A stretch of DNA of 33,557 nucleotides, from the NCBI GenBank assembly GCA_027315255.1, contig DAHUYL010000215.1, positions 1 to 33,557 of the forward strand. The letters are read 5' to 3'. Under the pieces are notes generated by a model. The model saw only the letters and a list, made by a program, of their open reading frames with translations, was not told where the DNA came from and did no database searches. Origin of the DNA: Solirubrobacterales bacterium (lineage in GTDB: Bacteria > Actinomycetota > Thermoleophilia > Solirubrobacterales > Solirubrobacteraceae). Position numbers and translations under genes: made by a program. How positions within the stretch are numbered: position 1 is the first letter of the stretch; each line of letters starts with the position of its first letter. Shown here in pieces: positions 7,770 through 23,179 of this stretch.

Positions 7770-8041
7770 CCGTCGGCCGGGCGGCGCCGGTAGGCCGACC
7801 CGTAGTCGACCCCCTCCTCCTCGATCGCGACGTTGACGGCGCCGCACCCGCCACAGCGGATGCGCAGCTTGCGGTTCATCCACTCGGCCGGCATCGACGC
7901 TGCGAGCAGGTTGCCGCACTGCCCGCAGACGTAGTCGTGATCGCCGTTGCCGCGAAACACCGGCCGGCCGGGTTGATCCTGGACGGCGGTGCCGCCGCCC
8001 AGCGGGACCTCGCCGGGCTCGGCTAGCCGCATCGTCTTCAC
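7766..8041 (-). CDS. Small zinc-ribbon protein of the cox operon
   Basis: A 91-residue protein with two CxxC knuckles, C39-GQ-C42 and C63-GG-C66, spaced like a zinc ribbon, flanked by FRGNGDHDYV and NVAIEEEGVDYGSAYRR. No known function is recognised. It begins at GTG 8041, overlapping the coxL2 stop (GTGA), and its own stop overlaps the mocA ATG, so it is translationally coupled to both. Position between a molybdenum hydroxylase and its cofactor enzyme suggests a role in metal or cofactor delivery or in redox coupling; that is inference. The four-cysteine pattern could also bind iron (rubredoxin-like), although the spacing of 20 residues is short for that. Confidence 0.7.
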   Translation of the reverse strand: MKTMRLAEPGEVPLGGGTAVQDQPGRPVFRGNGDHDYVCGQCGNLLAASMPAEWMNRKLRIRCGGCGAVNVAIEEEGVDYGSAYRRRPADG

Positions 8042-10431
8042 CGCCACGCGTGCTTCACCCCGCTGCGCCCGCGCGCAGCCTCCCGGGCGTCCTGCATCGC
8101 CTCCCACACGCGCGACGGCGTGCACGGGATGTCGAGGTGCCGCACGCCGAGCTCGCCGAGTGCGTCGCAGATCGCCCCGACGATCGCCGGCGGCGAGCCG
8201 ACCGTCGCCGACTCGCCGATCCCCTTGGCGCCGAGCGGGTGGTGCGGGCACGGCGTGACCGTGAACCCGGTCTCCCACTCGGGGACCTCGAGCGCGGTCG
8301 GGATCAGGTAGTCCATCAGCGAGCCGCTCAGGCAGTTGCCCTCGTCGTCGAACGCGATCTGCTGCATCAGCGCGCAGCCGACGCCGTCTGTGAGGCCGCG
8401 GTGGATCTGTCCCTCGATGATCTTCGGGTTGATCCGGGTGCCGCAGTCGTCGACCGCGACGAACCGCCGCACGGTCACCTTGCCGGTTCCGGGGTCGACG
8501 TCCACGACGCAAACGTACGCGCCGAACGGGAACGTCAGGTTCGGCGGGTCGTAGACGAGCTCGGCGTCGAGCCCGGCCTCGACGCCCTCCGGCAGCTCGA
8601 CCGACCCGCGCGCGGCACGAGCTATCTCCGGGATCGTCGCCCCCTGCTCGGGGTCGCCCTTGACGAACCAGCCAGCCGGCCGCCCCGACCCCGCACCCTC
8701 CCACTCGAGATCCTCAGGCGCGACCTCGAGCATCGCCGACGCGACCAGCCGCGCGCGGTCCCTGACCTTGCGCGCCACCAGCGCGGTGGCGGCGCCGCTG
8801 ACGGGGGTCGAGCGCGAGCCGTAGGTGCCGAGTCCGTACGGCGTCAGGTCGGTGTCTCCGTGGACGACGTCGATGTCCTCCACCGGGATACCAAGCTCGG
8901 ACGCGACGATCTGGGCGAACGTCGTCTCGTGCCCCTGCCCCTGCGTCTGCACGCTGACCGCCAGCTGTGCCTTGCCCGTCGGGTGCACGCGCAACGTCGC
9001 GGTGTCGTTCATCCCCAGCCCCATGATGTCCATGTGCCGGCGCGGGCCGGCGCCGACCGCCTCGGTGAAGAACGCCAGCCCGATTCCCATCAGCTCGCCG
9101 CGCTCGCGCGCGCGCGCCTGCTCGCGGCGCAGCTCCTCGTAGCCGGACAATTCGAGCGCGAGCCGCAGCGCGCGCTCGTAGTCGCCGGAGTCGTACACCC
9201 AGCCGGTCGGGCAGCGGTACGGGAACTGATCCGCGGCGATCAGATTCGACAGCCGCAACGCCGCCGGGTCGCTCCCCAGCTCGCGGGCAAGACAGTCGAC
9301 CAGCCGCTCGACCAGGTAGACGGCCTCGGCGATCCGGAACGAGCAAGAATAGGCGACACCTCCCGGAGCCTTGTTCGTGTAGGCGCCGCGCACCCGGCAG
9401 TGGGCCGCCTCGAGGTCGTAGGAGCCGGTGAACACGCTGAAGAACCCGGCCGGGTAGTTGCTCGGCTGCGCCGCGGCGTTGAACGCACCGTGGTCGGCGA
9501 TCACGTCGACGCGCACCGCCAATATCCGCCCGCTACGCGTGGCGGCGATCTGGCCGCGCATCAGGTAATCGCGCGCGAAGCCGGAGGCCATCAGGTTCTC
9601 GGAGCGGTCCTCGACCCACTTGACAGGCGCGCCGGTGTCGATCGCGCCCGCGATCGCGAGCAGGTAACCGGGGTAGACCGGCACCTTGTTACCGAACCCG
9701 CCACCGACGTCGGGCGAGATCACCCGGATCTTGTGCTCGGGCACGCCGGTCACGAGCGCGTACAGCGTGCGGTGGGCATGCGGCGCCTGGGTCGTGCAGT
9801 GGACGGTCAGCCTGCCGCTGACCCGGTCGAACTGCGCGAGCGCGCCGCAGGTCTCCATCGGCGCCGGGTGCGAGCGCGGGAACACCAGCTCCTGCTCGAC
9901 GACGACGTCGGCCCTGGCAAACGCCGCGCTGGTCGCCGCCGCGTCGCCGGCCTCCCAGTCGAACACGAGGTTGCCGGCCTGACCCGACCGGTCATCGCGG
10001 ATCACCGGCGCGTCGCGATCGAGCGCGCGAATCGGATCGACCACCACCGGCAGCGGCTCGTACTCCACGTCGATCAGCTCGAGCGCGTCGCGCGCGGCGT
10101 AGCGGTCCTCGGCGATCACGAATGCGACCTCCTGGCCCTGGAAGTGGACCTTGTCGAGCGCGAGCACGGCCTGGGTATCGGCCGACATCGTCGGCATCCA
10201 CGCCATCCCCCGCCGCTCGAGGTCGCGGCCGACGAGCACCGCGCGCACCTTGGGATGCGCCAGCGCTGCACTGGGGTCGATCGAGACGACCCGGGCGTGC
10301 GCCAGCGGGCTGCGCAGGACAGCGCCGTGCAGCATCCCGGCCGGCTGCAGGTCGTCGACGAACAGTCCCTGGCCGCGGATCATGCGGGCGTCCTCCTTGC
10401 GCGGAATCGGGCCGAAGCCGAACGGCTCCAC
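8038..10431 (-). CDS. coxL: Aerobic CO dehydrogenase large subunit, form I type (second copy)
   Basis: The molybdenum-binding subunit of a CO dehydrogenase-type hydroxylase (797 residues). It carries the form I active-site motif as AYSCSFR (Cys363, the expected Cu-S-Mo ligand), QTQGQGHETTFAQIV and YGLGTYGSRSTP cofactor loops, and GAKGIGES with the catalytic Glu740. An a/b hammerhead domain starts at PRKEDARMIRGQGLFVDDL. The upstream frame is open, but GTG 10431 gives the expected length and places six residues before the conserved FGFG; the ribosome site is weak (AGGA about 15 nt away). It lies apart from any coxM/coxS pair, downstream of coxG and upstream of the zinc-ribbon gene. Serine precedes the Cys where coxL1 has Arg. 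True CO activity versus a related substrate is unproven. Confidence 0.92.
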   Translation of the reverse strand: MEPFGFGPIPRKEDARMIRGQGLFVDDLQPAGMLHGAVLRSPLAHARVVSIDPSAALAHPKVRAVLVGRDLERRGMAWMPTMSADTQAVLALDKVHFQGQEVAFVIAEDRYAARDALELIDVEYEPLPVVVDPIRALDRDAPVIRDDRSGQAGNLVFDWEAGDAAATSAAFARADVVVEQELVFPRSHPAPMETCGALAQFDRVSGRLTVHCTTQAPHAHRTLYALVTGVPEHKIRVISPDVGGGFGNKVPVYPGYLLAIAGAIDTGAPVKWVEDRSENLMASGFARDYLMRGQIAATRSGRILAVRVDVIADHGAFNAAAQPSNYPAGFFSVFTGSYDLEAAHCRVRGAYTNKAPGGVAYSCSFRIAEAVYLVERLVDCLARELGSDPAALRLSNLIAADQFPYRCPTGWVYDSGDYERALRLALELSGYEELRREQARARERGELMGIGLAFFTEAVGAGPRRHMDIMGLGMNDTATLRVHPTGKAQLAVSVQTQGQGHETTFAQIVASELGIPVEDIDVVHGDTDLTPYGLGTYGSRSTPVSGAATALVARKVRDRARLVASAMLEVAPEDLEWEGAGSGRPAGWFVKGDPEQGATIPEIARAARGSVELPEGVEAGLDAELVYDPPNLTFPFGAYVCVVDVDPGTGKVTVRRFVAVDDCGTRINPKIIEGQIHRGLTDGVGCALMQQIAFDDEGNCLSGSLMDYLIPTALEVPEWETGFTVTPCPHHPLGAKGIGESATVGSPPAIVGAICDALGELGVRHLDIPCTPSRVWEAMQDAREAARGRSGVKHAWR

Positions 10432-10448
10432 GACGGTCGGGGTCAGTC

Positions 10449-10877
10449 CTAGATTGCGGACAGCTTCTCGGTGAAGTCCCGGATCAGCGCGTCGAGCACG
10501 CTGACCATCACGCCCTCGCCCATCGACGCGGCCTTGCCGGTGATCTGCGCGGCGGTGTGAACGGTGCCGCCACCATCGCCGAGCGTGAGCGTGACGTCGG
10601 CGTTGGCATGCCCCTGGCCGCCCTCCTCGCGCGACTTCACGCGCAGCACCACGCGATGGGCGTCCTCGTCGCGCTCGGCGACCTCGACCGTGCCCTTGAA
10701 CTTCAGCGACATCGCGCCCATCTTCACCTTGATCTCGGCCCTGACGCTGTCGTCGGCGGTGCGCTCGAGCACGCTGCCGCCCTCGACGCACGGGATCAGC
10801 CGCTCGAGGTCGAGGATCGCCTCCCAGTTGTAGTCGGTCGACTTGCCCGTACTGAACTGATGGTCCAGCTCAACCAT
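10449..10877 (-). CDS. coxG: CoxG-like SRPBCC protein
   Basis: A 142-residue SRPBCC-fold protein of the CoxG type: MVELDHQFSTGKSTDYNWEA, then IPCVEGGSVLE, VKMGAMSLKFKGTVEV, and the C-terminal helix TGKAASMGEGVMVSVLDALI. Family knowledge: CoxG proteins couple CODH to the membrane, and a quinone-handling role has been proposed. This copy ends right after the SRPBCC helix (FTEKLSAI) and has no C-terminal transmembrane tail, unlike longer CoxG proteins. It starts 8 nt inside the end of the YceI-like gene and ends 17 nt before coxL2. Confidence 0.88.
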   Translation of the reverse strand: MVELDHQFSTGKSTDYNWEAILDLERLIPCVEGGSVLERTADDSVRAEIKVKMGAMSLKFKGTVEVAERDEDAHRVVLRVKSREEGGQGHANADVTLTLGDGGGTVHTAAQITGKAASMGEGVMVSVLDALIRDFTEKLSAI

Positions 10878-11427
10878 GCCGCTCCTCCTCCTGTCCGAGT
10901 TGTGCCTCGACCGCCACCTCGACCTCGTCGGCCACCTTGAGCGTGCCGAACAAGGTCGTGTACGGCTTGATCCCCCAGTCGCTCTGCTTGAACCTGGTCG
11001 TGCCCGTCAGCCGCCCGGAGCCCTCGAGCGACAGCGTCACCGCCAGCGGGTGGCGCTGTCCCATCAGCTCCAGCTCGCCGTCGGCGCTCAGGCCGGCCAC
11101 GCCCAGCTCGACCGCGCGCGAGCGGAACTCGACGATCGCTCCCTTCAACACCTCCTCGTTGATCGTCTGCGCGATCGAGCGCTTGTCGTCCTCGGTCAGC
11201 GCCTGGACGCCGCCGGTTCCCTCGAGCACCTCCAGCGCACCCGTATCGACCCTCAGCGCAATTCGCGACTCGTTGTCCTGGCCCCCGAGCTCGAGCGTCG
11301 CCTCCCAGTCGCGCGCCTCGATCAGCAGGTTGTGCCCAGCCTTGGCCGCGACTCCGGCCTTGCCGGTGCGCACGGTCAGCCGCGCGTTGGACGGCCCGAA
11401 CGTGTATGAGCCGGGAGCGATCGCCAT
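10870..11427 (-). CDS. YceI-like lipid/quinone-binding beta-barrel protein, cytosolic
   Basis: A 185-residue protein resembling the YceI family, lipocalin-like barrels for which polyisoprenoid binding has been shown in some members. Seen here: SYTFGPSNARLTVRTGKAG, KAGHNLLIEARDWEATLEL, VDTGALEVLEG, and the C-terminal strands GTTRFKQSDWGIKPYTTLFG with VADEVEVAVEAQL. There is no signal peptide, so it should stay in the cytosol. The ATG overlaps the stop of the CoxL-fragment gene by one base (TGATG), and its 3' end overlaps coxG. Being adjacent to CoxG, it may share a quinone or membrane-coupling function (inference). The family assignment rests on pattern recognition. Confidence 0.75.
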   Translation of the reverse strand: MAIAPGSYTFGPSNARLTVRTGKAGVAAKAGHNLLIEARDWEATLELGGQDNESRIALRVDTGALEVLEGTGGVQALTEDDKRSIAQTINEEVLKGAIVEFRSRAVELGVAGLSADGELELMGQRHPLAVTLSLEGSGRLTGTTRFKQSDWGIKPYTTLFGTLKVADEVEVAVEAQLGQEEERHG

Positions 11428-11882
11428 CAGTCGCGGTACACGGTCTGCGCGTCGAGCCCGCCCTCCACGCCAGGCGGCAGCTCGCCGCTCCCGTGGGCGT
11501 ACAGCGCGATCTCGGCGATCGTCTGCGACCTCGCCGGCTCGCCCTGCGCGACGAACGCGCCGCCCTCCCAGCTGAGGCTCTCCGCCGGGGTCTCGAGTGC
11601 CATCCCGGCGAGCAGCTGCGCCTTGGCCCGGATCTTGCCGGTCGCGCTGACGATCGCGGCGGCGGTGCCGGTCGACGGGGTGGTGTTGTAGCCGTGCCCG
11701 TCGCCGAAGCGGTTGGTGTCCGCCGCCACGACCTTGACGTCGAGCGCGGGCACTCCGAGCTCGCCGGCCACCAGCTGCGCGTAGCTCGACTCCTGGCCGT
11801 CGGCCTCGGTCGTCAGGCTCAGGACCATCTTGCCGGTCGGGTGGATGCGCAGGAACACCGCCCGGTAGGCCTCATCGGCCAT
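11427..11882 (-). CDS. Free-standing CoxL fragment (molybdopterin-binding subdomain)
   Basis: The 151-residue protein aligns with an internal block of CoxL: FLRIHPTGKMVLSLTTEADG corresponds to LRIHPSGKAVVSLSCQTQG in coxL1, and the C-terminal PPGVEGGLDAQTVY to LPEGYEGGLDAQVIY. The CoxL cofactor loop QGQGHET is replaced by DGQESSY, and GLGTYGSRSTP by GHGYNTTPSTG, so it would not hold the cofactor in the standard way. It is not an obvious relic: it has its own ATG with a near-consensus ribosome site (AAGGAGGT, 5-nt spacing), an intact frame, and a one-base overlap with the next gene. A scaffold, chaperone decoy or regulatory role is conceivable. No function is known to me. Confidence 0.8.
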   Translation of the reverse strand: MADEAYRAVFLRIHPTGKMVLSLTTEADGQESSYAQLVAGELGVPALDVKVVAADTNRFGDGHGYNTTPSTGTAAAIVSATGKIRAKAQLLAGMALETPAESLSWEGGAFVAQGEPARSQTIAEIALYAHGSGELPPGVEGGLDAQTVYRD

Positions 11883-12063: not shown

Positions 12064-13424
12064 CCGTGGCTCCATCCGGGCGTCGTCAGTCCGCGCCGTG
12101 GACCGTAGCCGCTCGGCATCGCGACCGAGCTGCCCGGGATCGGCGTCGCGCTCGCCCACGGCTCTGCGTCACCTCCGCCGGGGGGCTCCACCGCCACTCC
12201 GCGCGCGACCCGTGGTGCCGCGATCACGTCGGCGAGCTCCTCGAGCGCCTCCAGCGTGTGCCCGCTGAGCAGCGCGTCCACGTGCGGCAGCGCCGCCGCC
12301 ATCCCGCCGGCCCTCGGCTCGAAGCCGGCGGCCGCGACGCGCGGGTTGACCCACACGATCCGGTGCGCGACCCGGGCGAGGCGCGCCATCTCGCGTGCAA
12401 CGCCCGCCGGATCGCCCCGCTCCCAGCCGTCGGAGATGATCACGACGACTGAGCCGCGGGCGATCCCGCGCCTGCCGTAGCCGTCGTTGAACGCCTTCAG
12501 CGCATCGGCGATCCGGGTGCCGCTGCTCCAGTCGGGTGCGGTCGCGGCGGCCCGCTGCATCGCGCGATCCGCCCGCCCGCCCCGCAGCGCGCGCGTCAGC
12601 CGCGTCAGCCGGGTCGCGAACGCGAACGCCTCGGCACGCCGGCTGCTCCCGACCGCGCACACGAGCAGCTGCAGGTACGCGCGCGCGTAGGGTTCCATCG
12701 AGCCCGAGATGTCGCACAGCATCACCAGCCGCCGGCGGGTCTCGATCCGCCGGCGCCGGGTCAGCCGGACGGGCTCGCCGCCGCTGCGGCGGCTGTCGCG
12801 CAGCGTCCGCCGCAGGTCGATCCGGCGCCCGTGGCGGTCGCGCCGCTGGCGCCGCGTGAGCCGCACCGGCGGCGACAGCGCGAGCCGCGCGATCAGGCGC
12901 GAGAGCATGGCGAGCTCGCCGGCGTCGAGCGCGTCGAAGCGCTTGTCGCGCAGCAGCTCCTCGTCGCTCGCCAGGACCGGAAGCGCCAGCTCGTCGAGCT
13001 CGAGTGCCCGTGAGTCCGGACGCGCGCCTGTCGCGATGCTGGCTCGCGCTGCGGGCGCGCCCGCGCCCTCGAGCTCCGGCCCCGGGGGGGCCTGCGCCGC
13101 CGTGGCAGGGGCTCCAGCCGGCATCTCCGGCGCCGGCGCCGCGAGCTCGCCGGCCGCCGTCCCGGCCCCGAACACCTCCGCGAACACCGCGTCGAACACC
13201 CGCATTTGCGCGGGGTCGCTGACCAGCACCGCGCGCGCGGTGAAGTACAGCCGGCGCCGCGCGACCGGCGCCTCGAGCGCGAGCGCGCGCGCCAGCCACG
13301 TGGCGCGCGCGGGGCCGACCGGCATGCCGGCGTCGTGCAGCCGCCGCGTGAACGCGCCGACGAGCGGCGGGAGGTCCAGCGTCAGCCCGCGGACCCCCGT
13401 GGCGACCTCGAGCTCGCGGCTCAC
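12060..13424 (-). CDS. coxE: CoxE, VWA-domain CODH maturation protein
   Basis: A 454-residue protein with an N-terminal helical region (TRRLHDAGMPVGPARATWLA), a Pro/Ala-rich middle, an Arg-rich linker (RLTRRQRRDRHGRRIDLRRT) and a C-terminal von Willebrand A domain. Its MIDAS motif is DISGS at Asp238, with later MIDAS elements SSGTRIADAL and IISDGWERG. In CO-oxidising bacteria CoxE works with the CoxD ATPase in maturing the Cu-S-Mo centre. GTG 13424 overlaps the coxD stop (GTGA); the same frame is open upstream but there it lies antisense-free within coxD and shows no family sequence. The stop overlaps the small zinc-knuckle gene. Confidence 0.92.
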   Translation of the reverse strand: MSRELEVATGVRGLTLDLPPLVGAFTRRLHDAGMPVGPARATWLARALALEAPVARRRLYFTARAVLVSDPAQMRVFDAVFAEVFGAGTAAGELAAPAPEMPAGAPATAAQAPPGPELEGAGAPAARASIATGARPDSRALELDELALPVLASDEELLRDKRFDALDAGELAMLSRLIARLALSPPVRLTRRQRRDRHGRRIDLRRTLRDSRRSGGEPVRLTRRRRIETRRRLVMLCDISGSMEPYARAYLQLLVCAVGSSRRAEAFAFATRLTRLTRALRGGRADRAMQRAAATAPDWSSGTRIADALKAFNDGYGRRGIARGSVVVIISDGWERGDPAGVAREMARLARVAHRIVWVNPRVAAAGFEPRAGGMAAALPHVDALLSGHTLEALEELADVIAAPRVARGVAVEPPGGGDAEPWASATPIPGSSVAMPSGYGPRRGLTTPGWSHG

Positions 13425-14344
13425 CGCGCCGTCCTCAGCAGCCGCTCGAGGCCGGCCGCCCGCACGGCCTCCTGATCCTCGGCGTACTTGAGCACCGACC
13501 CGAGCGTGCGATCGATGACCGAGGGTTCGAGCGCGTCGACCCCGAGCACCTGCAGCGCCGCCACCCAGTCGATCGCCTCGGCGACCCCCGGCGGCTTCTG
13601 CACGTCGCTCATGCGGATCCGGGTGATCGCGGTCGCGACCTGGACGGCGAGCGTCTCCGAGACACCCTTGACGCGCCGGCGGATGATCTCGACCTCGCGG
13701 TCGGCGCTCGGATAGTCGATCCACTGGTACAGGCAGCGGCGCTTGACCGCGTCGTGCAGGTCCCGCGTCCGGTTCGAGGTCAGCACGATCGCGGGCGGGT
13801 GGGTGGCGCGGATCACGCCCAGCTCGGGGATCGTCACCGCCGCCTCGCCGAGCAGCTCGAGCAGGAACGCCTCGAAGTCGTCGTCGGCGCGATCGATCTC
13901 GTCGATCAGGAGCACCGCCGGGCGCGGGCCGGGGTGCTCGAGCGCGCGCAGCAGCGGCCGGCGGATCAGGTAGTCGCTGCCGAACAGATCTTCCTCGTGC
14001 AGGCTCCTGCCCTCGGACTCGGCAAGCCGGATCCCGAGCAGCTGGCGCGGGTAGTTCCACTCGTACAGCGCCTCGGCCGCGTCGATCCCCTCGTAGCACT
14101 GCAGGCGGATCAGCGGCGTCTCGAGCACCGCCGCCAGCGCCTTCGCCGCCTCCGTCTTGCCGACGCCCGCCTCGCCCTCGAGCAGCAGCGGCTGCGGCAG
14201 GCGCAGGCTCAGGAAGATCGAGGTGGCGAGCGCCTCGTCGACCAGGTAGTCGACCGCGGCGAGCCTGATCGCGAGCGTCTCGACGTCCGGGAGCAGCCGC
14301 CTGACCTCCTCGGCGGCCTCGCTGGTGACCGGCTCGGAGCTCAC
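13421..14344 (-). CDS. coxD: CoxD, MoxR-type AAA+ ATPase
   Basis: A 307-residue AAA+ ATPase acting as a metal-centre maturation chaperone for CODH. Walker A GEAGVGKT is at residues 57-64, Walker B VLLIDE at 144-149, sensor 1 ALVLTSNRT-like segment reads AIVLTSNRTRDL, and the arginine-rich DAVKRRCLYQWIDYP follows. The start is GTG 14344, overlapping the coxF stop (GTGA). Known biology: CoxD and CoxE together help introduce sulfur and copper into the CoxL active site. The order coxL-coxF-coxD-coxE here differs from the classic coxMSLDEFG order. Confidence 0.94.
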   Translation of the reverse strand: MSSEPVTSEAAEEVRRLLPDVETLAIRLAAVDYLVDEALATSIFLSLRLPQPLLLEGEAGVGKTEAAKALAAVLETPLIRLQCYEGIDAAEALYEWNYPRQLLGIRLAESEGRSLHEEDLFGSDYLIRRPLLRALEHPGPRPAVLLIDEIDRADDDFEAFLLELLGEAAVTIPELGVIRATHPPAIVLTSNRTRDLHDAVKRRCLYQWIDYPSADREVEIIRRRVKGVSETLAVQVATAITRIRMSDVQKPPGVAEAIDWVAALQVLGVDALEPSVIDRTLGSVLKYAEDQEAVRAAGLERLLRTAR

Positions 14345-15237
14345 GCCGCCGCGCGCTCCAGGAAGCGGGTCCGGCATCCCTCGCAGCAGAAGTGGAACGT
14401 CTCGCCGCCGACCTCGGCGGTCGGGGTCTGCGGTCCGATTGCGACGGTCATCCCGCAGATCGGGTCGAGCGCCGTGAGCGGTTCCTTCGCCGCTGCTGCT
14501 CTGGCCGGAGCAGCAGCGGCGGTGCTGCGCCGCACGCTGATGATTCGCGCCAGGATCGCGACCGCGATCTCGGCCGGCGTGAGCGCGCCGATCGCGACGC
14601 CGGCGGGCGTGTCGATCCGCGCGAGCAGCTCGTCCGCGACGCCCGCCGCGCGCAGGTCGTCGAGCACCGCTGCGCCGCGGGCCGGACTCGCGACCAGGCC
14701 GATGTACGGGATCCCCAGCTCGAGCGCGCCGTGTAGCGGGCCGAGCTCGTCGCGGCCGTGCGCGGCCACTACCAGCGCGAGGTCGCCTGCCTCCGGGCTG
14801 GCGACCTCGGCGACGACAAGCCCGACCGCAGGCGCGAGCGCTCGCACCGAGTCCGCGATCGGGCTCTCGCCGGCGACGCTCACCCGCGGCTGCGCGAGCA
14901 CCGGCTCGAGGAAGATCTCGACCGCCCCGCCCGCCAGGCACGGGTTGCGGACGGTCACGGTGCCGTCCTCGCCGGGCTCGTCCTCGCCGGCCTCGGGCTC
15001 GATCGCCAGCAGCAGCGGCTCGCCCGACTCGAGCGCGTGGAGCGCGTACGCGCGCACGCTCTGCTCCGCGCAGACCCCCCCGACGAACCCTTCGATCGTC
15101 CCGTCTGCGTGGACCAGCGCCACGTCGCCGGCGTGGGCGCTGGTCGGGTGGCGTGCGCGCACGACCGTCGCCGTGACGAACGCCTCACCGGCCCCGGTCA
15201 GTTCCCGGGCGCGGCGTGCGAGCTCCTGCGAGATCAC
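14341..15237 (-). CDS. coxF: CoxF/XdhC-family maturation protein fused to a YHS-like metal domain
   Basis: A 298-residue protein. The N-terminal XdhC/CoxI domain has GEAFVTATVVRARHPTSAHAGD and GFVGGVCAEQSVRA; the XdhC C-terminal Rossmann-like domain includes LALVVAAHGRDELGPL and YIGLVASPARG. Family members bind and deliver sulfurated molybdenum cofactor to Mo hydroxylases. After an Ala-rich linker, residues 257-298 form a YHS/TRASH-like domain: LDPICGMTV (Cys261) and FHFCCEGCRTRF (Cys284, Cys285, Cys288), a likely heavy-metal site. Copper is an attractive guess because the CODH centre needs it, but that is inference. GTG 15237 overlaps the coxL1 stop (GTGA). Confidence 0.9.
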   Translation of the reverse strand: MISQELARRARELTGAGEAFVTATVVRARHPTSAHAGDVALVHADGTIEGFVGGVCAEQSVRAYALHALESGEPLLLAIEPEAGEDEPGEDGTVTVRNPCLAGGAVEIFLEPVLAQPRVSVAGESPIADSVRALAPAVGLVVAEVASPEAGDLALVVAAHGRDELGPLHGALELGIPYIGLVASPARGAAVLDDLRAAGVADELLARIDTPAGVAIGALTPAEIAVAILARIISVRRSTAAAAPARAAAAKEPLTALDPICGMTVAIGPQTPTAEVGGETFHFCCEGCRTRFLERAAA

Positions 15238-17621
15238 TGCGGCGGCTCCGGTCTTCCCTGCATCGCCGCCCACACGCGGGCGGGCGTGCACGGCATGTCG
15301 ATGTGCGTGACCCCGTGGGTCTCGTGCAGCGCGTCGATCACGGCCGCGACGATCGCCGGCGGCGTGCCGACGTTCGGCGACTCGCCGACGCCCTTGGCGC
15401 CGAGCGGGTGGTGCGGGCACGGCGTCACCGTCGCCCCGAGCTCGAAGTCGGGGCACTCGAGCGCGGTCGGGATCAGGTAGTCCATGAACGAGCCGTTCAG
15501 GCAGTTGCCCTCCTCGTCGAACGTGATCACCTCCATCAAGGCGATCCCGATCCCCTCGGCGATACCGCCGTGGATCTGGCCGTCGACGATCATCGGGTTG
15601 ATCCGCACGCCGCAGTCGTCGACTGCGATGAACCGCCTGACCTTGACCGCCGCCGTCTCGGGATCGATGTCGACGACCGCGATGTAGGCGCCGTAGGGGT
15701 AGGTGAGGTTCGGTGGGTCGTAGATCACCTGCGCGTCAAGGCCGCCCTCGTAGCCCTCGGGCAGCGGCTCGCCGCTGTATGCCCGCGCCGCGATCTGCTC
15801 GATCAGGACGCCCTGCTCGGGGTCGCCCTTCACGTACCAGCGGCCCTTCTCCCACGCCAGGTCCTCGGGCCTCGTCTCGAGCATCGTCGCCGCGATCAGC
15901 CGCGCCTTGTCGCGCACCTTGCGGCTGACGATCGCGACCGCGCCCCCCGACACCGGCGTCGAGCGCGAGCCGTAGGTGCCGAGGCCGTACGGGGACTTGT
16001 CGGTGTCGCCATGGCGGACCTCGACGTCCTCGGGCGGGATCCCCAGCTCCTCGGCGACGATCTGGGCGAACGTCGTCTCGTGGCCCTGGCCCTGGGTCTG
16101 GCAGCTGAGCGACACGACCGCCTTGCCCGAGGGATGGATCCGCAGGTCGGCGCCGTCGTTCATCGACAGCCCGAGGATGTCCATGTGCTTGCGGGGTCCG
16201 GCGCCGACGCCCTCGGTGAAGAACGCCACCCCGATCCCCATCAGCTCGCCGCGGGCGCGCTTCTCCGCCTGCTCGCGGCGCAGCTCGTCGTAGCCGGCGA
16301 TCTCCATCGCGACCCGCATCGTGTTCGCGTAGTCGCCGGAGTCGAACGTCCAGCCCGTGGTCGTCTCGTACGGGAACTGCTCGGGCGCGATGAAGCTCCG
16401 CATCCGCAGCTCGATCGGGTCGACGCCCATCTCCATCGCCAGCGCCCCGACCATCCGCTCGACCAGGTACACCGCCTCCGTGATCCGGAACGAGCAGCGG
16501 TAGGCGACCCCGCCCGGCGCCTTGTTCGTGTAGACGGCCTTGACCTTCACGTGCGCGGCCTCGAGCGCGTAGGAGCCGCAGCAGATGTGGAAGAAGCCGG
16601 CCGGGAACTTCGTCGGCTGGGCGGTCGAGTCGAACGCCCCGTGGTCGGCGATCACGTCGACCTTCAGGCCCGTGATCCTCCCGTCCTTGGCGCAGATCGC
16701 GCCGTGCATGACGTAGTCGCGCGCGAACCCGGTCGACATCAGGTTCTCGGAGCGGTCCTCGATCCACTTGACGGGCCGGCCGGCGACGATCGAGCCCGCG
16801 ATCGCGCACACGTACCCGGGGTAGACGGGGACCTTGTTGCCGAAGCCGCCGCCGATGTCGTTGCAGCGGATCCGGATCATGTGCTCGGCCAGCCCGGCGA
16901 CGTGCGCGTACACGGTCCGGTGCGCGTGCGGCGCCTGGTTGCCGTTGTAGATGTCGAGCTGCCCCGTCTGCGGATTGAAGTCGGCGATCATCCCGCAGGT
17001 CTCGAGCGGGGCCGGGTGACAGCGGGGATAGATCATGTCCTGCTCGACGACCACGTCCGCCTCCGCGAACACGCGGTCGGCCGCCTCCTCGTCGCCCGCC
17101 TCCCAGGTCGGGCTCGCGAGGTTGTCGAGCTGCCCCTGCTTGTCGTCGCGGATCAGCGGCGCGTCGGGATCGAGCGCCTTGCGCGCGTTGACGACCGCCG
17201 GCAGCGGGTCGTAGTCGACCTCGATCAGCGCCAGCGCGTCGCGCGCCGAGTACTCGTCGGTGGCGATCACGCACGCCACCTCCTGGCCCTGGAAGCGGAC
17301 CTTGTCGCCGGCGAGCACGGCCTGCGTGTCGTAGGAGATCGTGGGCATCCACGCGAGCCCCAGCGTCTCCAGGTCCTTGGCGGTGATCACCGCGGCGACG
17401 TTCGGGTGCGCGAGCGCCGCGCTCGTGTCGATCGAGTTGATCTTCGCGTGCGCGTACGGGCTGCGCAGGATCGCGGCGTGCAGCATCCCGGGCAGGCGGA
17501 TGTCGTCGAGGTAGTTGCCCTTGCCGCGGATGAAGCGCGCGTCCTCCTTGCGCTTCAGGCGCCCGAACCCGATCGGGCGCTCCTGCTCACCGCTCGGCAG
17601 GTTCTCGGTTGTGACGGCCAT
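15234..17621 (-). CDS. coxL: Aerobic CO dehydrogenase large subunit, form I (first copy)
   Basis: A 795-residue catalytic Mo subunit that oxidises CO to CO2 in the CoxLMS complex. The form I signature AYRCSFR is present (Cys376 ligates Cu in the Cu-S-Mo centre); cofactor-binding loops are QTQGQGHETTFAQIV and YGLGTYGSRSTPVSGG; the catalytic base is Glu747 in GAKGVGESP. The N-terminal hammerhead domain begins at KRKEDARFIRGKGNYLDDI. ATG 17621 lies 3 nt after the coxS1 stop, directly behind coxM1-coxS1, so this is the canonical MSL trio. Overall sequence, from the N-terminus through the PPNLTYPYGAY region, matches bona fide CoxL more than xanthine dehydrogenase. Confidence 0.96.
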   Translation of the reverse strand: MAVTTENLPSGEQERPIGFGRLKRKEDARFIRGKGNYLDDIRLPGMLHAAILRSPYAHAKINSIDTSAALAHPNVAAVITAKDLETLGLAWMPTISYDTQAVLAGDKVRFQGQEVACVIATDEYSARDALALIEVDYDPLPAVVNARKALDPDAPLIRDDKQGQLDNLASPTWEAGDEEAADRVFAEADVVVEQDMIYPRCHPAPLETCGMIADFNPQTGQLDIYNGNQAPHAHRTVYAHVAGLAEHMIRIRCNDIGGGFGNKVPVYPGYVCAIAGSIVAGRPVKWIEDRSENLMSTGFARDYVMHGAICAKDGRITGLKVDVIADHGAFDSTAQPTKFPAGFFHICCGSYALEAAHVKVKAVYTNKAPGGVAYRCSFRITEAVYLVERMVGALAMEMGVDPIELRMRSFIAPEQFPYETTTGWTFDSGDYANTMRVAMEIAGYDELRREQAEKRARGELMGIGVAFFTEGVGAGPRKHMDILGLSMNDGADLRIHPSGKAVVSLSCQTQGQGHETTFAQIVAEELGIPPEDVEVRHGDTDKSPYGLGTYGSRSTPVSGGAVAIVSRKVRDKARLIAATMLETRPEDLAWEKGRWYVKGDPEQGVLIEQIAARAYSGEPLPEGYEGGLDAQVIYDPPNLTYPYGAYIAVVDIDPETAAVKVRRFIAVDDCGVRINPMIVDGQIHGGIAEGIGIALMEVITFDEEGNCLNGSFMDYLIPTALECPDFELGATVTPCPHHPLGAKGVGESPNVGTPPAIVAAVIDALHETHGVTHIDMPCTPARVWAAMQGRPEPPQ

Positions 17622-17624
17622 CGC

Positions 17625-18110
17625 TCACGCCTCCTGTTCGACGGTCGCGGGGTGCTCCGCCGCCCAGCGGATCGCGGCGACGATGTTCTTGTATCCGGTG
17701 CAGCGGCAGATGCCGCCGGAGATCGCGGTGCGGATCTCGGCCTCGCTCGGGTCGGGGTTTGCGTCGAGCAACGCTCGGGCGGTCATCATCATCCCCGGGG
17801 TGCAGAACCCGCACTGGAGCGCGTGCAGCTCGTGGAAGCCCTGCTGCACCGGGTCCAGGCGTCCGTCGCGTTCGAGCGACTCGACCGTCCGGATCTGATG
17901 GCCCTGCGCCATCGCCGCCAGCACCGTGCACGACTTCACCGGCTTGCCGTCCATCAGCACCACGCAGGCGCCGCAGTTGGAGGTGTCGCAGCCCCAGTGC
18001 GTGCCGGTCAGCCCCGGCGTCTCGCGGATGAAGTGGACGAGCAGCTTGCGCGGCTCCTCCTCGCGCGTGACGTCCTCGCCGTTGATGTTCACCGTGATCT
18101 GCACGCTCAT
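17625..18110 (-). CDS. coxS: CO dehydrogenase small subunit, [2Fe-2S] protein (first copy)
   Basis: The 161-residue iron-sulfur subunit carries electrons from the Mo centre to FAD. The N-terminal ferredoxin-like cluster is ligated by Cys41, Cys46, Cys49 and Cys61 (GCDTSNCGACVVLMDG); the C-terminal helical cluster by Cys100, Cys103, Cys135 and Cys137 (LQCGFCTPGMMM and GICRCTGY). All eight ligands are present. The ATG overlaps the coxM1 stop (ATGA), and coxL1 follows after 3 nt. Confidence 0.96.
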   Translation of the reverse strand: MSVQITVNINGEDVTREEEPRKLLVHFIRETPGLTGTHWGCDTSNCGACVVLMDGKPVKSCTVLAAMAQGHQIRTVESLERDGRLDPVQQGFHELHALQCGFCTPGMMMTARALLDANPDPSEAEIRTAISGGICRCTGYKNIVAAIRWAAEHPATVEQEA

Positions 18111-18985
18111 GCCTCCGTCTGCAGTGCGCGGGCCGCGGCGCGGCGCAGGGCGCGTTTGGTCAGCACGCCGGCGAGGTGGCGCTTGTAGTCGACCGGCCCG
18201 CGGCCGTCGGCCATCGGCGCGCAGTCCTCCGAGGCGATCCCGCCCGCCTGCTCGAACAGCTCCTCCGAGGGTCGGGCGCCGCGCAGCAGCTCCTCGGCGC
18301 GGGTGATCTCGATCGTCGTCGGGGCGAGCGCGCTGAGCGCCACGCCGGCGGCCGCGATCGTGCCCCCCTCGATCTCGAGCGCGGCCGCGGCGGCGCCGAT
18401 CGCGAAGTCGCCGGCCCGCCGCTCGACCTTCTCGTAGGCGCTGCCGGCCCCGGGGCTCGTCCTGATCCTGACCTCGGTCAGGATCTCGTCCGGGGCCACG
18501 ACCGTGACGTACGGACCGAGCTGGAACTCGCGCATCGCCACGATCCGCTCGCCGCTCGGGCCCTGGAGCACGACGTGCGCCTTCAGCGCCGCGCACACGG
18601 CGCTCAGGTCCTCGCCGGGATCGGCCTGGCAGAGCGAGCCGCCGATCGTCCCGCGGTTGCGCACGACCGGGTCGGCGATCACCTCCTCGGCGTCGCGGAA
18701 CACGGGGAAGTGCTCGGCCAGCAGCTCGGAGTCCAGCAGCTCGGCGTGGCGGGTGAGCGCGCCGATCCTGATCTCGCCCTGCTGCTCGCGGATGTAGGCC
18801 AGGTCAGACTCGAGGTCGTTGATGTCGATCAGCCGCTCCGGGCTCGCCAGCCGCAGCTTCATCATCGGCAGCAGGCTGTGGCCGCCGGCGATCACGCGGG
18901 CCTCGGCGCCTGCGGCCTTCAGTGCTGCGATCGCGCCGGCGAGGCTCGTCGCGCGCTCGTACTCAAACGGTGCGGGCGTCTGCAT
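18107..18985 (-). CDS. coxM: CO dehydrogenase medium subunit, FAD-binding (first copy)
   Basis: The 292-residue flavoprotein subunit passes electrons from CODH to quinone-linked acceptors. FAD motifs are AGGHS (33-37, followed by LLPMMKLRLASP) and TIGGS (113-117, within VVRNRGTIGGSLCQADPGED); the C-terminal CO dehydrogenase flavoprotein domain ends with VDYKRHLAGVL. The ATG has a good ribosome site (GAGAGGAG). The gene overlaps the 3' end of the preceding membrane-protein gene by 23 nt, so the membrane proteins and this MSL set are translated from one message. Confidence 0.95.
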   Translation of the reverse strand: MQTPAPFEYERATSLAGAIAALKAAGAEARVIAGGHSLLPMMKLRLASPERLIDINDLESDLAYIREQQGEIRIGALTRHAELLDSELLAEHFPVFRDAEEVIADPVVRNRGTIGGSLCQADPGEDLSAVCAALKAHVVLQGPSGERIVAMREFQLGPYVTVVAPDEILTEVRIRTSPGAGSAYEKVERRAGDFAIGAAAAALEIEGGTIAAAGVALSALAPTTIEITRAEELLRGARPSEELFEQAGGIASEDCAPMADGRGPVDYKRHLAGVLTKRALRRAAARALQTEA

Positions 18986-19625
18986 CTGGGCTCCTCTCGT
19001 GTGTCGTCGGGCGCTCGAGCACCGCGGTCGCGGCGGGCGGGGTCCGTCTGGTGCCGGGCGTCTGCGCCGGCTCGTACTGCACCGGGGCGCCGGTCCCGAT
19101 CACCGGTGAGCGCGGCATCTTCGCGGGCCGCGCCTGGCGCGCGTCGGGATAGAGCGCCCGCGCGGCGGCGCTGCCGTAGGTGACGTCGCGAAGTGCCGGC
19201 CCGTTCGGGCTCGCCGCCGCGATCGGCGCCTCGCGGCCGAGCCGGGCGAGCGTCAGCGTCCCCTTCGTGTAGACCTCGGCGATCCGCGGCGGGGTGACCT
19301 GAAGGCTCTCCGGGAAGTTGCGCAGCCCCTCGGCCGCGGCTCCCGGGTACAGCCCGTCGATCAGCCCGACCGCATCGTCCAGTCCCGCCTTCTTGACGAG
19401 CAGCCCCTCGAGCGCGTCGACTGCCGCGTCGAGGTTGGCGTTGATCGTCTGGACGACCGGCGCGACCGGCTCTGACTTGCCGATCAGCTCACCGACGCCG
19501 GCGATCGCGCGATCGAGCCCCGTGGCGATCGCGCGCAGCGCGAGGATCGTCGAGACGAGGAAGTAGACGAGCACCGCCACGATCGCGACGACCGCGATCG
19601 CCAGCACCACTCCTGCCGCGGGCAT
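18963..19625 (-). CDS. Single-helix membrane protein A of the cox operon
   Basis: A 220-residue protein: an N-terminal hydrophobic helix (VLAIAVVAIVAVLVYFLVST), then an amphipathic helical region (LRAIATGLDRAIAGVGELIG), a block PVAPVVQTINANLDAAVDAL, and a longer, partly disordered tail rich in Pro, Ala and Thr (PAQTPGTRRTPPAATAV). The PVxPxVxxINA block resembles PLEPAVRDINAQ in protein C, suggesting common origin. No known domain is recognised; short DUF948-like proteins have a comparable helix-plus-coil layout. The ATG overlaps the upstream gene's stop by one base; the 3' end overlaps coxM1. A role as membrane anchor or scaffold for CODH is inferred only from position. Confidence 0.75.
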   Translation of the reverse strand: MPAAGVVLAIAVVAIVAVLVYFLVSTILALRAIATGLDRAIAGVGELIGKSEPVAPVVQTINANLDAAVDALEGLLVKKAGLDDAVGLIDGLYPGAAAEGLRNFPESLQVTPPRIAEVYTKGTLTLARLGREAPIAAASPNGPALRDVTYGSAAARALYPDARQARPAKMPRSPVIGTGAPVQYEPAQTPGTRRTPPAATAVLERPTTHERSPDADARTV

Positions 19626-19897
19626 CAGTTCGCTCCTTCGGTGTTGTCGTCGAGGATCACGTCGAGCGAGCCGCCGTAGTCGGCGACCGTCTGCACGGTC
19701 CGGATCACGTGCTCCTGGGTGCTCAGCAGCAGCGGCACCGCGTCCAGGTCCTTGGAGCCGGCGGCGGCGGCGTTGGCGATCCGCTCGACGCTCGGCACGA
19801 TCCCGCGGGCCGTGGTCAGGACCGCCTGCAGCAGCGCCACCACCAGCGGTGCGACGACGAGGATCAGGATCGCGTCGCCGATCCAGTAGAGGGTCAT
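19625..19897 (-). CDS. Single-helix membrane protein B of the cox operon
   Basis: A 90-residue protein: a hydrophobic N-terminal segment (IGDAILILVVAPLVVALLQA), then a predicted cytosolic helical part with IVPSVERIANAAAAGSKDLD, VPLLLSTQEHVIRTVQTVA, and an acidic end (SLDVILDDNTEGAN). The ATG at 19897 overlaps the stop of protein C's gene (ATGA). No family recognised. It shares only its overall plan with its four neighbours. Confidence 0.72.
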   Translation of the reverse strand: MTLYWIGDAILILVVAPLVVALLQAVLTTARGIVPSVERIANAAAAGSKDLDAVPLLLSTQEHVIRTVQTVADYGGSLDVILDDNTEGAN

Positions 19898-20169
19898 CGC
19901 GGCCTCCGCTCGGCCACCACCGCCGCCTTCGTGGCAATTCCCGGCAGCGCGCCGAGGATCGTCGCGAACTGGGCGTTGATGTCCCTGACCGCCGGCTCGA
20001 GCGGCCGCAGGTGCTCCGACTCGACCGATTCGAGCGCGGTTGCGAGCGTCGCGAGGTTCCCCGAGATCGACTCGAGTCCGCGACGGACGAGAATCAGCGC
20101 GGCGGCGAGCACGACGATCACGACGATCGCCAGCGCGACGCTGAGCGCGACCAGTGCGTGCGTGCTCAT
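19894..20169 (-). CDS. Single-helix membrane protein C of the cox operon
   Basis: A 91-residue protein: a strongly hydrophobic helix at residues 6-28 (VALSVALAIVVIVVLAAALI) followed by positive RRG, then a heptad-like helix (LESISGNLATLATALESVES) and PLEPAVRDINAQFATIL, similar to a block in protein A. The charge pattern suggests the C-terminal part lies in the cytosol. Coupled by 4-nt overlaps on both sides. No known family; function unknown. Confidence 0.75.
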   Translation of the reverse strand: MSTHALVALSVALAIVVIVVLAAALILVRRGLESISGNLATLATALESVESEHLRPLEPAVRDINAQFATILGALPGIATKAAVVAERRPR

Positions 20170-20456
20170 GCGCCACCGAACCCATCGGTCAGCGCGTTCA
20201 TGTAGCCGTCCTGCACCACCGCCTCCTCGACGATCTTTGCGAGCACCGGCGCGGTCGCCGTCAGCTCCGGGATATGCGAGGTGTTGCCGGCGACGAGGCC
20301 GGCGACGCCGAGCAGCTGCCTGACGGAGCGCTCGATGCTCGAGACCGCCCGGATCAGGATCGCCAGCAGCGCGGCGACCGCGAGCGCGGCCACAAGGCCG
20401 ATGATCAGCGAGATCCCCCAGTAGGTGTGGGCCGAGGTTGCGAGCACGAGCGTCAT
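20166..20456 (-). CDS. Single-helix membrane protein D of the cox operon
   Basis: A 96-residue protein: an N-terminal hydrophobic region of about 25 residues (WGISLIIGLVAALAVAALLA) followed by a helix with charged residues (IRAVSSIERSVRQLL) and a moderately hydrophobic C-terminal part (VAGNTSHIPELTATAPVLAK) ending in DGFGGA. The ATG at 20456 overlaps the stop of protein E's gene; the stop overlaps protein C's ATG. No family recognised. Confidence 0.73.
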   Translation of the reverse strand: MTLVLATSAHTYWGISLIIGLVAALAVAALLAILIRAVSSIERSVRQLLGVAGLVAGNTSHIPELTATAPVLAKIVEEAVVQDGYMNALTDGFGGA

Positions 20457-20691
20457 CTGCCCACCGCCACCTTTCTGAGCGCGCGCGCGCTGCGGAGGAT
20501 CCGCACGCCCGAGTCGTTGACCCTCGAGATCCCCGCGAGCTCGTCGGTCTGGCGCTTGACGGCGCCGACCCCCTCGACCGCGGTCTGCGCCTGGCGCGCG
20601 ATCCGCTGGGCGAGCCGCACGATCGTGATCACGATCGCGGCCGCCACGGCGATCACGACCACGCCGAGCACGATTCCGACAATCCATCCCG

Positions 20692-20695
<4 letters not shown>
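20453..20695 (-). CDS. Single-helix membrane protein E of the cox operon
   Basis: An 80-residue protein: an N-terminal transmembrane helix (IVGIVLGVVVIAVAAAIVIT) and a basic, helical cytosolic part (VRLAQRIARQAQTAVEGVGA, then RILRSARALRKVAVGR). GTG 20695 overlaps the coxS2 stop (GTGA), which fixes the start and ties it to CODH subunit translation. It is the first of five consecutive small membrane-protein genes between the two coxM/coxS sets. Function unknown. Confidence 0.73.
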
Positions 20696-21194
<499 letters not shown>

Positions 21195-21198
<4 letters not shown>

Positions 21199-22061
21199 CG
21201 AGTTGCCCTCTCCGCGGCGCGGTTCAGCGCGCGCAGCACCAGCACGCCCGCGAGGTGACGCTTGTAGCGGGCCGAGCCGCGCTGGTCGGAGACCGGGCGT
21301 GCACCGTCCGCGGCGGCTGCCGCTGCCTGCTCGAATGCCTCCTGCGATGGCGGCCGGCCGGCGAGCGCCGCCTCCGCCTCGGCCGAGCGGGTGCCGGCGC
21401 CGACGGCGGCGAGCGCGATCCCGGCCCGCTCGATCAGGCCGTCGGTCAGGGTCACCGAGACGCCCGCGGCGGCAACCGCCCAGTCGCCGGCGCGCCGGTC
21501 GAGCTTCTCGTAGGCGCTGCCCGAGCCCGCCCGCAGCGGCACGCGGATCTCGGTCACCATCTCCGCGTCTCCCACGGCTGTCCGGTAGGGCCCTCGGCCG
21601 AACGCCTCGATCGGGACGACGCGCTCTGAATCGAGGCCGCGAATCACGATCGAGGCGCCGACGGCCGCGCACACGGCGCTGAGATCCTCGGATGGGTCGG
21701 CCTGGCACAGCGCGCCGCCGATCGTGCCGCGGTTGCGCACGACGGGATCCGCGATCACCCGCTCCGCGTCCGTGAAGATCGCCAGCTTCTCGCGCAGCAG
21801 CGGCGACTCGAGCAGCTCCCGGTGGCGCGTCATCGCTCCGATCCGCACCTCGTCTCCGTGCTCGCGGACGTAGCCGAGCTCGCTCACCAGCGGATCGATG
21901 TCGATCACGTAGGCGGGCGAGGCGAGCCGCAGCTTCATCATCGGCAGCAGCGAGTGGCCGCCGGCGAGCAGGCGTGCGCCCGGGCCGAGCTGCGCAAGCA
22001 GCCCGAGCGCATGCTCGACGCTAGAGGCGCGCTCGTACTCGAACGCCGCTGGAACCTGCAA
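21195..22061 (-). CDS. coxM: CO dehydrogenase medium subunit, FAD-binding (second copy)
   Basis: A 288-residue flavoprotein subunit and the first gene of the 20-gene operon. FAD motifs are AGGHS (33-37) and TIGGA (113-117, within VVRNRGTIGGALCQADPSED), with C-terminal ARYKRHLAGVL. The start codon is TTG at 22061, preceded by GAGAGGGAG at suitable distance; no ATG or GTG gives the conserved MQVPAAFEYERA N-terminus. It resembles the coxM1 product throughout. A promoter and palindromic operator lie upstream, between it and the divergent LysR gene. Confidence 0.94.
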
Positions 22062-22139: not shown

Positions 22140-22180
22140 GGGCACGCCCGGTGGGGTGCCGATCAGCTACCAATTGCGGG

Positions 22181-23179
22181 GTGACGCTCGCGCAGCTGCA
22201 ATCGTTCGTCCTCGTCGCGCGGCTCGGTTCGGTGAAGGCCGCGGCCGCCGAGCTCGAGGTCACCGAGCCGGCCGTGTCCGTGGCCGTCGCCGCGCTGCGC
22301 AGGGAGCTTGGCGACGAGCTGTTCGTTCGCTCCGGTCGCGGCATCGCGCTCACGGCCGGCGGGCGCCGGCTGGCAGCGCTCGCCACCGAGATCCTCGGGC
22401 TGGCGGAGCAGGCGCGCCGCTCGGTCCACGACACGCCCGGCCGCCCGCGGCGTCTCGAGCTCGTCACGACCCAGCTCGCCGCCGAGTACATCGCCCCGCT
22501 GATCGACGCGTTCGCGGCGCGCGGGGAGGGGGTGGAGATCGCGGTCGAGCCGGCGCCGGGCCGCTCGTTCGCCGAGCTGCTCGAGCATCGCCGGGCCGAC
22601 ATCGCGCTCGGTCCGCACCCCGGGCCGGAGCGCGCGGGGGCGATCGCCGTCGTCCCGTTCCTGCGCTGCCGTCAACTGCTCGTTGGCGCCCCGGGCCATC
22701 GCCTCGCCGGGCGCAGCCAGGTGCAGCCGTCCGAGCTGGCCGGGGAGCGCTGGTTGATTCCACATCCCGACCTGGACCCGACCACCGGCACCGGCGCCTT
22801 CTTCGAGCGCAGCGGGCTCCAGCCGCGACAGCTGAGCCACTACACGAGTCAGGCTGCGGCGATCGCTGCGGCGGTCGCGGGCGAGGGGATCGTGCTGGTC
22901 GTCTCGCATTCCGTGGTCGACGAGGTTCGCCGCCGTGCGCTGGTCCGCCTGGACGTCGCGGGGACGCCGGTCGAGGAGCTGTGGTACGCGAGCACGCTCG
23001 GACTCGATCGCGCGCTGCCGGCCGCGCTGTCGCTGCAGCGGTTCGCGACGACCTCGGACGCGACCCAGGCGATCTCCTCGGGTCGTGCCGGTGCGATCTC
23101 GAAGCGCTCGCGCCCGACCGTCCACGTCACCCTGTGGCGGTCGGTCGCGGCCGAGCTGGACGCCGGCGGCGGCGCCTGA
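22181..23179 (+). CDS. LysR-family transcriptional regulator, probably of the cox operon
   Basis: A 332-residue LysR-type regulator: N-terminal winged helix-turn-helix (LAQLQSFVLVARLGSVKAAA, then LEVTEPAVSVAVAALRRELG, and DELFVRSGRGIALTAGG), a linker helix, and a two-lobed effector domain (VVPFLRCRQLLVGAPGHRLA, VAGEGIVLVVSHSVVDEVRR). It is divergent from the CODH operon, like CutR-type regulators known beside mycobacterial CODH genes, so CO- or energy-dependent control is likely. GTG 22181 matches the usual LysR N-terminus; a GTG at 22151 is possible, and neither has a strong ribosome site. The next gene starts 5 nt after its stop. Confidence 0.9.
   Translation: MTLAQLQSFVLVARLGSVKAAAAELEVTEPAVSVAVAALRRELGDELFVRSGRGIALTAGGRRLAALATEILGLAEQARRSVHDTPGRPRRLELVTTQLAAEYIAPLIDAFAARGEGVEIAVEPAPGRSFAELLEHRRADIALGPHPGPERAGAIAVVPFLRCRQLLVGAPGHRLAGRSQVQPSELAGERWLIPHPDLDPTTGTGAFFERSGLQPRQLSHYTSQAAAIAAAVAGEGIVLVVSHSVVDEVRRRALVRLDVAGTPVEELWYASTLGLDRALPAALSLQRFATTSDATQAISSGRAGAISKRSRPTVHVTLWRSVAAELDAGGGA

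Follow-up and report, generated by a model that had tools for sequence, protein, structure and literature searches.

The window analyzed here, a stretch of 33,557 nucleotides from a Solirubrobacterales bacterium (contig DAHUYL010000215.1 of assembly GCA_027315255.1), carries an operon for carbon monoxide dehydrogenase (CODH) with five small genes, A to E, between coxS2 and coxM1. We believe that proteins A-E are a membrane-docking stalk that keeps cytosolic trace-gas dehydrogenases near the quinone pool, and we give this reading a probability of about 0.6. It builds on the genes themselves, their predicted topology and helices, their linkage to two enzyme types, the lack of cofactor residues and a co-variation with the CoxG tail; from these we infer the assembly of the five proteins, their binding to the enzymes and their access to quinone. 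In the available portions of three papers, membrane electron transfer by cytosolic group 1h hydrogenases and CODHs is an open or partly open question (PMC6883350, PMC7174314, PMC6794299), and a module found beside both enzymes offers five concrete candidates for this step, in cultured strains. If the reading is correct, one shared part ties together two main biological sinks of atmospheric trace gases, and its genes mark a CODH subtype with a tailless CoxG.

Genes A to E and their predicted proteins

The first-pass annotation, made from the window's letters alone, had placed five genes of 80 to 220 residues between coxS2 and coxM1, and the coordinates agree (Table 1). It had also described all junctions as overlaps of 1 to 4 nt. 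By the open reading frame coordinates this is so from coxS2/A through C/D (4 nt each) and at D/E (1 nt), while E runs 23 nt into coxM1, whose ATG is at 18985; coxS2 ends at 20692. The PVxPxVxxINA-like block that had been assigned to A and C is shared by C (PLEPAVRDINA) and E (PVAPVVQTINA). The duplication suspected from it is nonetheless clear in profile-profile comparisons with 27 orthologues of each protein, in which C and E (probability 92%, E-value 5e-7) and A and B (83%, 9e-6) are paralogues and B and D show a weaker resemblance (31%, 5e-4). Orthologous A-E sets recur beside coxMSL in several other genomes with order and strand kept, which is more than chance and is the neighborhood conservation that the annotation had asked for.

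Topology, cysteine counts and amphipathicity were determined on 402 A-E family members scoring at least 45 bits, with lower scorers omitted. Exactly one hydrophobic segment is present in 391 of them, in line with the annotated layout of one N-terminal membrane helix followed by a helical tail, and in 388 the residues after the segment are richer in lysine and arginine than those before it, which predicts an N-out, C-in orientation. The amphipathic moment of the 28 residues past the helix peaks at 100 degrees in all five families. Tail amphipathicity is strong in B and D (individual p<0.05 in 86/95 and 54/72 members) and modest in E (31/83), A (29/92) and C (17/60). Single-chain AlphaFold2 models agree with the topology in predicting helices, at residues 2-59 and 69-94 of B (mean pLDDT 84.8, pTM 0.42) and at 3-51 and 54-80 of E. 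A Foldseek search with the E model returned a single, meaningless match (E-value 8.7).

None of the window's five proteins contains a cysteine, only 41/402 family members have any at all, and there is no invariant Cys or His column in the A, B, D and E alignments (C was counted for Cys only). These counts bear on a different role that the annotation had left in play, in which A-E are themselves electron carriers, a membrane redox subunit with its own cofactors leading from CoxM or HydS to quinone. Such a subunit would suit operons of enzymes that have no recognized membrane redox subunit. Without cysteines or an invariant histidine, electron transfer by A-E themselves is very improbable, and we set this candidate aside because cofactor ligands are lacking; of the annotation's two suggestions, the membrane dock is the one that stands as the best reading.

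Searches for known families were negative. No Pfam or NCBIfam model reached its curated cut-off with A-E, PHROGs gave nothing at E-value <=0.01, the CoxG domain (PF06240) did not match up to an E-value of 10, and member-by-member scans of the A family (NCBIfam) and B family (Pfam) gave single weak matches only. Profiles of A, B, D and E found helical, chance-like matches in the PDB, with no Huc chain among them at E-value <=1, a threshold that distant homology could escape; the PDB as searched includes 7utd and other Huc entries, with the HucM chain assumed to be among them. The window's own genome has no second copy of E at E-value <=0.001. We found no description of the five-gene cassette in the open-access literature that we searched, a set that leaves most subscription papers outside.

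Linkage to CODH and [NiFe]-hydrogenases

We collected 29 stretches around the first matches and 71 more, and mapped their genes through similarity to cox genes of the window and hydrogenase genes of two stretches, L056 and L061. The count is based on 99 stretches including the window, without L062 and L063, which have no cassette. Taking three or more A-E genes as a cluster gave 95 clusters in 81 genomes of the Actinomycetota. Left out of the 95 were L050 (E alone beside coxMSL), six stretches with two or few weak members beside hydrogenase genes (L144, L162, L165, L166, L171, L189) and G043:C20, a copy of C2; outside the context count were G361, G689, G754, G763 and G143 (E-values 2e-4 to 8e-4) and G687:C9 (1e-5). 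In diverged sets, C and E can readily be mistaken for one another. The most common gene order is ABCDE (43 clusters), followed by ADBE (16), ABC (14), DEABC (7) and others (15).

A coxL gene is present in 33/95 clusters, hydL or hydS in 45, and hyp or hycI genes only in 2; of the 15 clusters with none of these, four (L040, L126, L152, L176) have the cassette at the end of a contig, adjacent to other cox genes. In total, 37 clusters are CODH-linked and 47 hydrogenase-linked (84/95), where the chance level for a random +-10 kb stretch is roughly 1-3% (for a 3.5 Mb genome that has two to six target genes). On the strength of these hydrogenase contexts we reject a role dedicated to CODH, as the first-pass annotation had it. 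The annotation had named frequent occurrence away from CODH loci as an argument against its reading, and literally this is what we see; the second partner, however, is also a trace-gas dehydrogenase and presumably cytosolic, a combination that favors docking.

Five clusters (L160, L168, L174, L180, L191) have the cassette placed between hydS and hydL, all on one strand, and the matched part of its last gene is separated from that of hydL by 21-32 nt. This slot is the place of a structural subunit, and it bears on the main rival explanation, that A-E are an assembly or maturation platform of membrane-bound helpers, which would construct the metal centre together with the MoxR/vWA pair CoxD-CoxE or with hydrogenase maturation, outside the working enzyme. 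CoxD/CoxE-like genes are found in the stretches of 22/37 CODH-linked and 11/47 hydrogenase-linked clusters, meaning that both enzyme types share more than A-E, and hyp genes often neighbor the cassette. On the other hand, 36/47 hydrogenase-linked clusters lack coxD/E in the stretch (some are cut by contig ends), including the five hydS-hydL ones, no catalytic motif was recognized in A-E, and a position between structural subunit genes suits a subunit better than a maturation helper. We therefore consider the maturation platform a possible but rather unlikely explanation.

The linkage also appears at the level of genomes. Three of them (G117, G033, G189) have one CODH cluster and another with a hydrogenase, and so does G075, where only E is visible beside coxMSL (L050). 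A NiFe large subunit at E-value <=1e-30 is present in 33/49 cassette-bearing genomes of the class and in 46/350 others (hand count; Fisher p 4e-15, with relatedness ignored). Among 31 cassette-bearing genomes of the phylum, 22 have a NiFe match above the Pfam cut-off and seven of the remaining nine have a CoxL at least 55% identical to CoxL1; the two without such a CoxL are G616, with hydS beside the cassette, and G779, which is 78% complete. The large subunits of L061 and L056 have HofG (5aa5) as best match, far ahead of others (E-values 6e-144 and 2e-140), so by sequence the two tested partner hydrogenases are of the actinobacterial (HofG-like, group 5/1h) type; the other cluster hydrogenases were recognized by similarity to the L056/L061 pairs (40-94%). 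The window's own genome (92% complete) has only weak NiFe large subunit matches (best 1e-13), so there the cassette probably serves CODH alone.

In searches at E-value <=0.001, we found E in 28/201 genomes of the order, B in 49/399 of the class and A in 40/396 of the phylum, the weakest of these matches being doubtful. The wide profiles were applied within Actinomycetota. A scan of 84,980 species' genomes with two CODH-type B patterns, which says nothing on diverged members elsewhere, gave 33 loci, all with actinobacterial titles, and identified the cultured carriers Solirubrobacter soli DSM 22325, S. phytolaccae KCTC 29190 and S. taibaiensis KCTC 29222. Among the matches listed for the order, 22 genomes have a CoxL at least 78% identical to CoxL1, and 21 of these also carry the cassette, in some cases on a different contig; in the exception, G049, the contig ends inside the operon. 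Absence from related cox clusters, which the annotation had held against its reading, does occur: in 15 order genomes with a best CoxL of 60-76% identity to CoxL1, no CODH-linked E is among the matches listed. One of these, G027, has cassettes elsewhere in the genome. In G107, which carries an 82% copy too, a cassette adjoins a 74% CoxL.

In a tree of the joined A, B and D alignments (78 clusters, 259 columns; a quick method, with unknown root and several long rows), the CODH-linked cassettes fall in two separate groups (27 and 9 rows). Even if only starred branches are counted, the partner must have switched between CODH and hydrogenase at least twice. The tree suggests that the module has moved from one partner to another, as would suit a plug-in part. 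Protein E, measured from the profile start, has 185-268 residues in 27 CODH-linked cassettes of the class, 75-87 in eight of the distant CODH group and 80-130 in 40 hydrogenase-linked matches; lengths of 157-197 also occur in L132, L127 and L125. As E is short in the distant CODH group, the long extension is a trait of one CODH group and not of CODH linkage as such.

CoxG and the case for a membrane dock

The first-pass annotation had noted that the window's CoxG lacks a membrane tail, and the protein does end at its CoxG domain match. In all 17 CODH loci of the class with the cassette and CoxG on one contig, CoxG extends only 0-7 residues past the match (G000, G165, G132, G010, G194, G147, G196, G011, G213, G033, G117, G001, G189, G075, G356, S. 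soli, L233; in G075 only E is visible, at the contig start), and a CoxG without a tail is also seen in L213, L257 and L210, whose contigs do not include the cassette. By contrast, of the eight form I loci without a cassette and with a visible CoxG, which come from the 15 order genomes described above, six (L198, L200, L201, L202, L203, L206) have a C-terminal membrane helix in CoxG (KD19 1.86-2.46) behind a mostly proline/alanine-rich linker; of the other two, L197 is truncated where its contig stops, and the CoxG of L208 carries a short amphipathic tail with no clear membrane helix. If one anchor had replaced another, this is the picture that would be expected.

We suggest that each of the five proteins is inserted N-out/C-in through one helix that continues as a long amphipathic cytosolic helix, and that the paralogous helices would come together as a hetero-oligomeric stalk. 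CODH (CoxMSL, perhaps both sets, along with the tailless CoxG) would bind this stalk, bringing its FAD site and CoxG within reach of menaquinone, and in the window's operon the module would stand in for the C-terminal membrane helix of CoxG. The C-terminal extension of E may be a CODH-specific contact, and in relatives the same module would serve [NiFe]-hydrogenases. In a bolder form of the docking reading, which we regard as tentative, A-E would form a hetero-oligomeric coiled-coil tube across the membrane that serves as a plug-in conduit for quinone. Two unrelated soluble enzymes would have recruited it, Mo-CODH on at least two occasions and NiFe-hydrogenase. Such a conduit would be a membrane-embedded counterpart of the HucM tube and one common actinobacterial way to wire the oxidation of atmospheric CO and H2 to menaquinone.

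Known systems show what such a part could resemble. According to the accessible text of PMC6794299, CODH is primarily cytosolic and CoxG is implicated as its anchor in O. carboxidovorans, and that of PMC13240472 reports CoxG as menaquinone-binding, citing Kropp 2025. CoxG (PF06240) is thus like the proposed A-E in being implicated in linking CODH to membrane and quinone; it differs in having its own domain and, in some loci, a C-terminal helix, while A-E lack the CoxG domain and occur beside a tailless CoxG. HucM is described in an excerpt of PMC10017518 as a helical membrane-associated stalk that gives Huc access to menaquinone. Like the proposed stalk, HucM is an elongated helical link from a cytosolic trace-gas enzyme to the membrane, and both have amphipathic helices that may make up a quinone-accessible stalk. 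However, HucM is one protein, a tetramer peripheral to the membrane, that works with Huc, whereas A-E make up five families that each have a predicted membrane helix and are encoded next to CODH and HofG-type hydrogenases. By analogy, the amphipathic tails are compatible with a HucM-like stalk carrying menaquinone, and A-E would work like the HucM stalk or the CoxG anchor.

The cytochrome b subunits that anchor group 1 hydrogenases contain heme and have several helices. They resemble A-E in being membrane partners encoded with the hydrogenase (PMC6883350, in part), and differ in that each of A-E has a single helix and conserved cofactor residues are absent. No cytochrome b-type anchor was found in the M. 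smegmatis Huc and Hhy operons according to the same portion of that paper, which calls the electron route from Huc/Hhy to the respiratory chain unresolved. HucE and HhyE, encoded with Huc and Hhy and proposed there as the link to the respiratory chain, carry CxxC motifs, while the window's A-E are cysteine-free. The available part of PMC7174314 describes Hyd-1h as membrane-associated without transmembrane helices, and the SolV operon as containing two hypothetical membrane proteins that are absent in Actinobacteria.

Several points weigh against a membrane dock. The putative Fe-S proteins HucE and HhyE were shown to be required and have been proposed as another link for Huc/Hhy (PMC6883350, same portion), and linkage alone would fit an assembly factor too. 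In the distant CODH group with the cassette, E is short and CoxG retains a tail of 45-59 residues (8 loci; amphipathic, no clear transmembrane helix), which, together with the similar tail of L208, means that the replacement is not universal. The cassette-type CoxL1 proteins of the class form one clade (27 rows, SH-aLRT 99), so the CoxG-tail contrast is phylogenetically thin and may be a single evolutionary event. Residues 81-220 of the E model have pLDDT mostly <50 and are unreliable. Finally, 11/95 clusters have neither enzyme in the stretch (L054, L055, L057, L125, L127, L132, L140, L167, L175, L185, L194), with hydrogenase genes farther out on the contigs of L132 and L125 (L211, L214); L054, L055 and L057 are sisters of the CODH clade and lie by uvrA-, acyl-CoA-dehydrogenase- and AMP-ligase-like genes (by eye).

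These eleven clusters would fit a further explanation, in which A-E are general membrane-structure or stress proteins that only travel with CODH and hydrogenase islands. DUF948 (PF06103) proteins have the same layout of an N-terminal membrane helix and a helical tail, and B and E weakly resemble them. Their scores (11.8 and 13.7 bits) are far below the gathering cut-off of 37.2, while 84/95 clusters are linked to one of the two enzymes and some occupy the slot between hydS and hydL, so we find this explanation improbable.

The surrounding operon and neighboring genes

The operon reads, from 5' to 3', coxM2, coxS2, A-E, coxM1, coxS1, coxL1, an XdhC-like gene, coxD, coxE, a CoxL-like fragment, YceI, coxG and coxL2, with a MobA-like gene further downstream; the names coxS, coxD, coxE and XdhC-like were given partly by eye. 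CoxM and CoxL Pfam domains were found. Two CODH sets share the operon (8038-22061, minus strand), coxM2-coxS2 coming first, coxL2 near the end and the complete coxM1-coxS1-coxL1 set between. Read from the translations, CoxL1 has the motif AYRCSFR and CoxL2 AYSCSFR, which we take to be the AYXCSFR-type mark of form I CODH. CoxL1 and CoxL2 fall in different clades of the CoxL tree, where CSFR is present in 55/56 rows (the exception is L063, a 42% row).

Table 1. Positions of genes A-E and of the cox and associated genes in the window.
Feature	Position	Strand	Remarks
coxM2 (CODH FAD subunit)	21195..22061	-	Pfam
coxS2 (CODH small subunit)	20692..21198	-	By similarity
Gene A	20453..20695	-	80 aa, GTG start; single transmembrane helix and helical tail
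Gene B	20166..20456	-	96 aa; AlphaFold2-modelled
Gene C	19894..20169	-	91 aa; paralogue of the N-terminal part of E
Gene D	19625..19897	-	90 aa
Gene E	18963..19625	-	220 aa; N-terminal transmembrane/helical part related to C, long C-terminal extension
coxM1	18107..18985	-	Pfam; overlaps E by 23 nt
coxS1	17625..18110	-	By similarity
coxL1, form I type (AYRCSFR)	15234..17621	-	Pfam, CoxL tree
CoxL-like fragment, stand-alone	11427..11882	-	151 aa, part of MoCoBD_2; similarity, Pfam
YceI-domain protein (PF04264)	10870..11427	-	Pfam
coxG	10449..10877	-	142 aa, without C-terminal membrane tail; Pfam
coxL2, second form I type large subunit	8038..10458	-	Start uncertain; translation, CoxL tree

The CoxL-like fragment, between coxE and YceI, has homologues near coxE in many cassette-bearing CODH loci and was not detected in L195-L206, which are loci without the cassette and in part short. 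The YceI gene adjoins coxG here and in many cassette-bearing CODH loci, and its product has no obvious signal peptide by eye. YceI proteins bind isoprenoids and quinones, so this one may be a second quinone-handling protein. Divergent to coxM2 lies a LysR-type regulator gene (22151-23179, plus strand; by eye), and similar LysR-like genes, also by eye, are found ahead of coxM in L049 and L052.

In five loci (L248-L252, from the related genomes G033, G117, G001, G189 and G075), hypC and hypD are found about 2-3 kb behind coxG, and in four of these genomes they are followed by a hydrogenase with 40-49% identity to the L056 type, forming a CO/H2 supercluster. The genes flanking the cassette in L052 are covered by L052:11483-13006 and L052:8977-9576 (both minus strand); two longer single-helix proteins (246-260 residues) with repeated ING-like motifs are encoded ahead of A, and a weakly PsbP-like protein (below cut-off) after E. 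Among the clusters with neither enzyme, L127 has a RuBisCO large subunit (Pfam), and L194 has what by eye looks like a similar gene. Genes that by eye encode MinD/CooC-like P-loop ATPases lie near some of L127, L194, L125 and L132, and the same kind of gene is near the L059 hydrogenase. Elsewhere in the window, tRNA-Leu (CAG) and tRNA-Glu (CTC) genes lie on opposite strands within 4903-5179, beside an integrase-like open reading frame (by eye) at 5125-6273.

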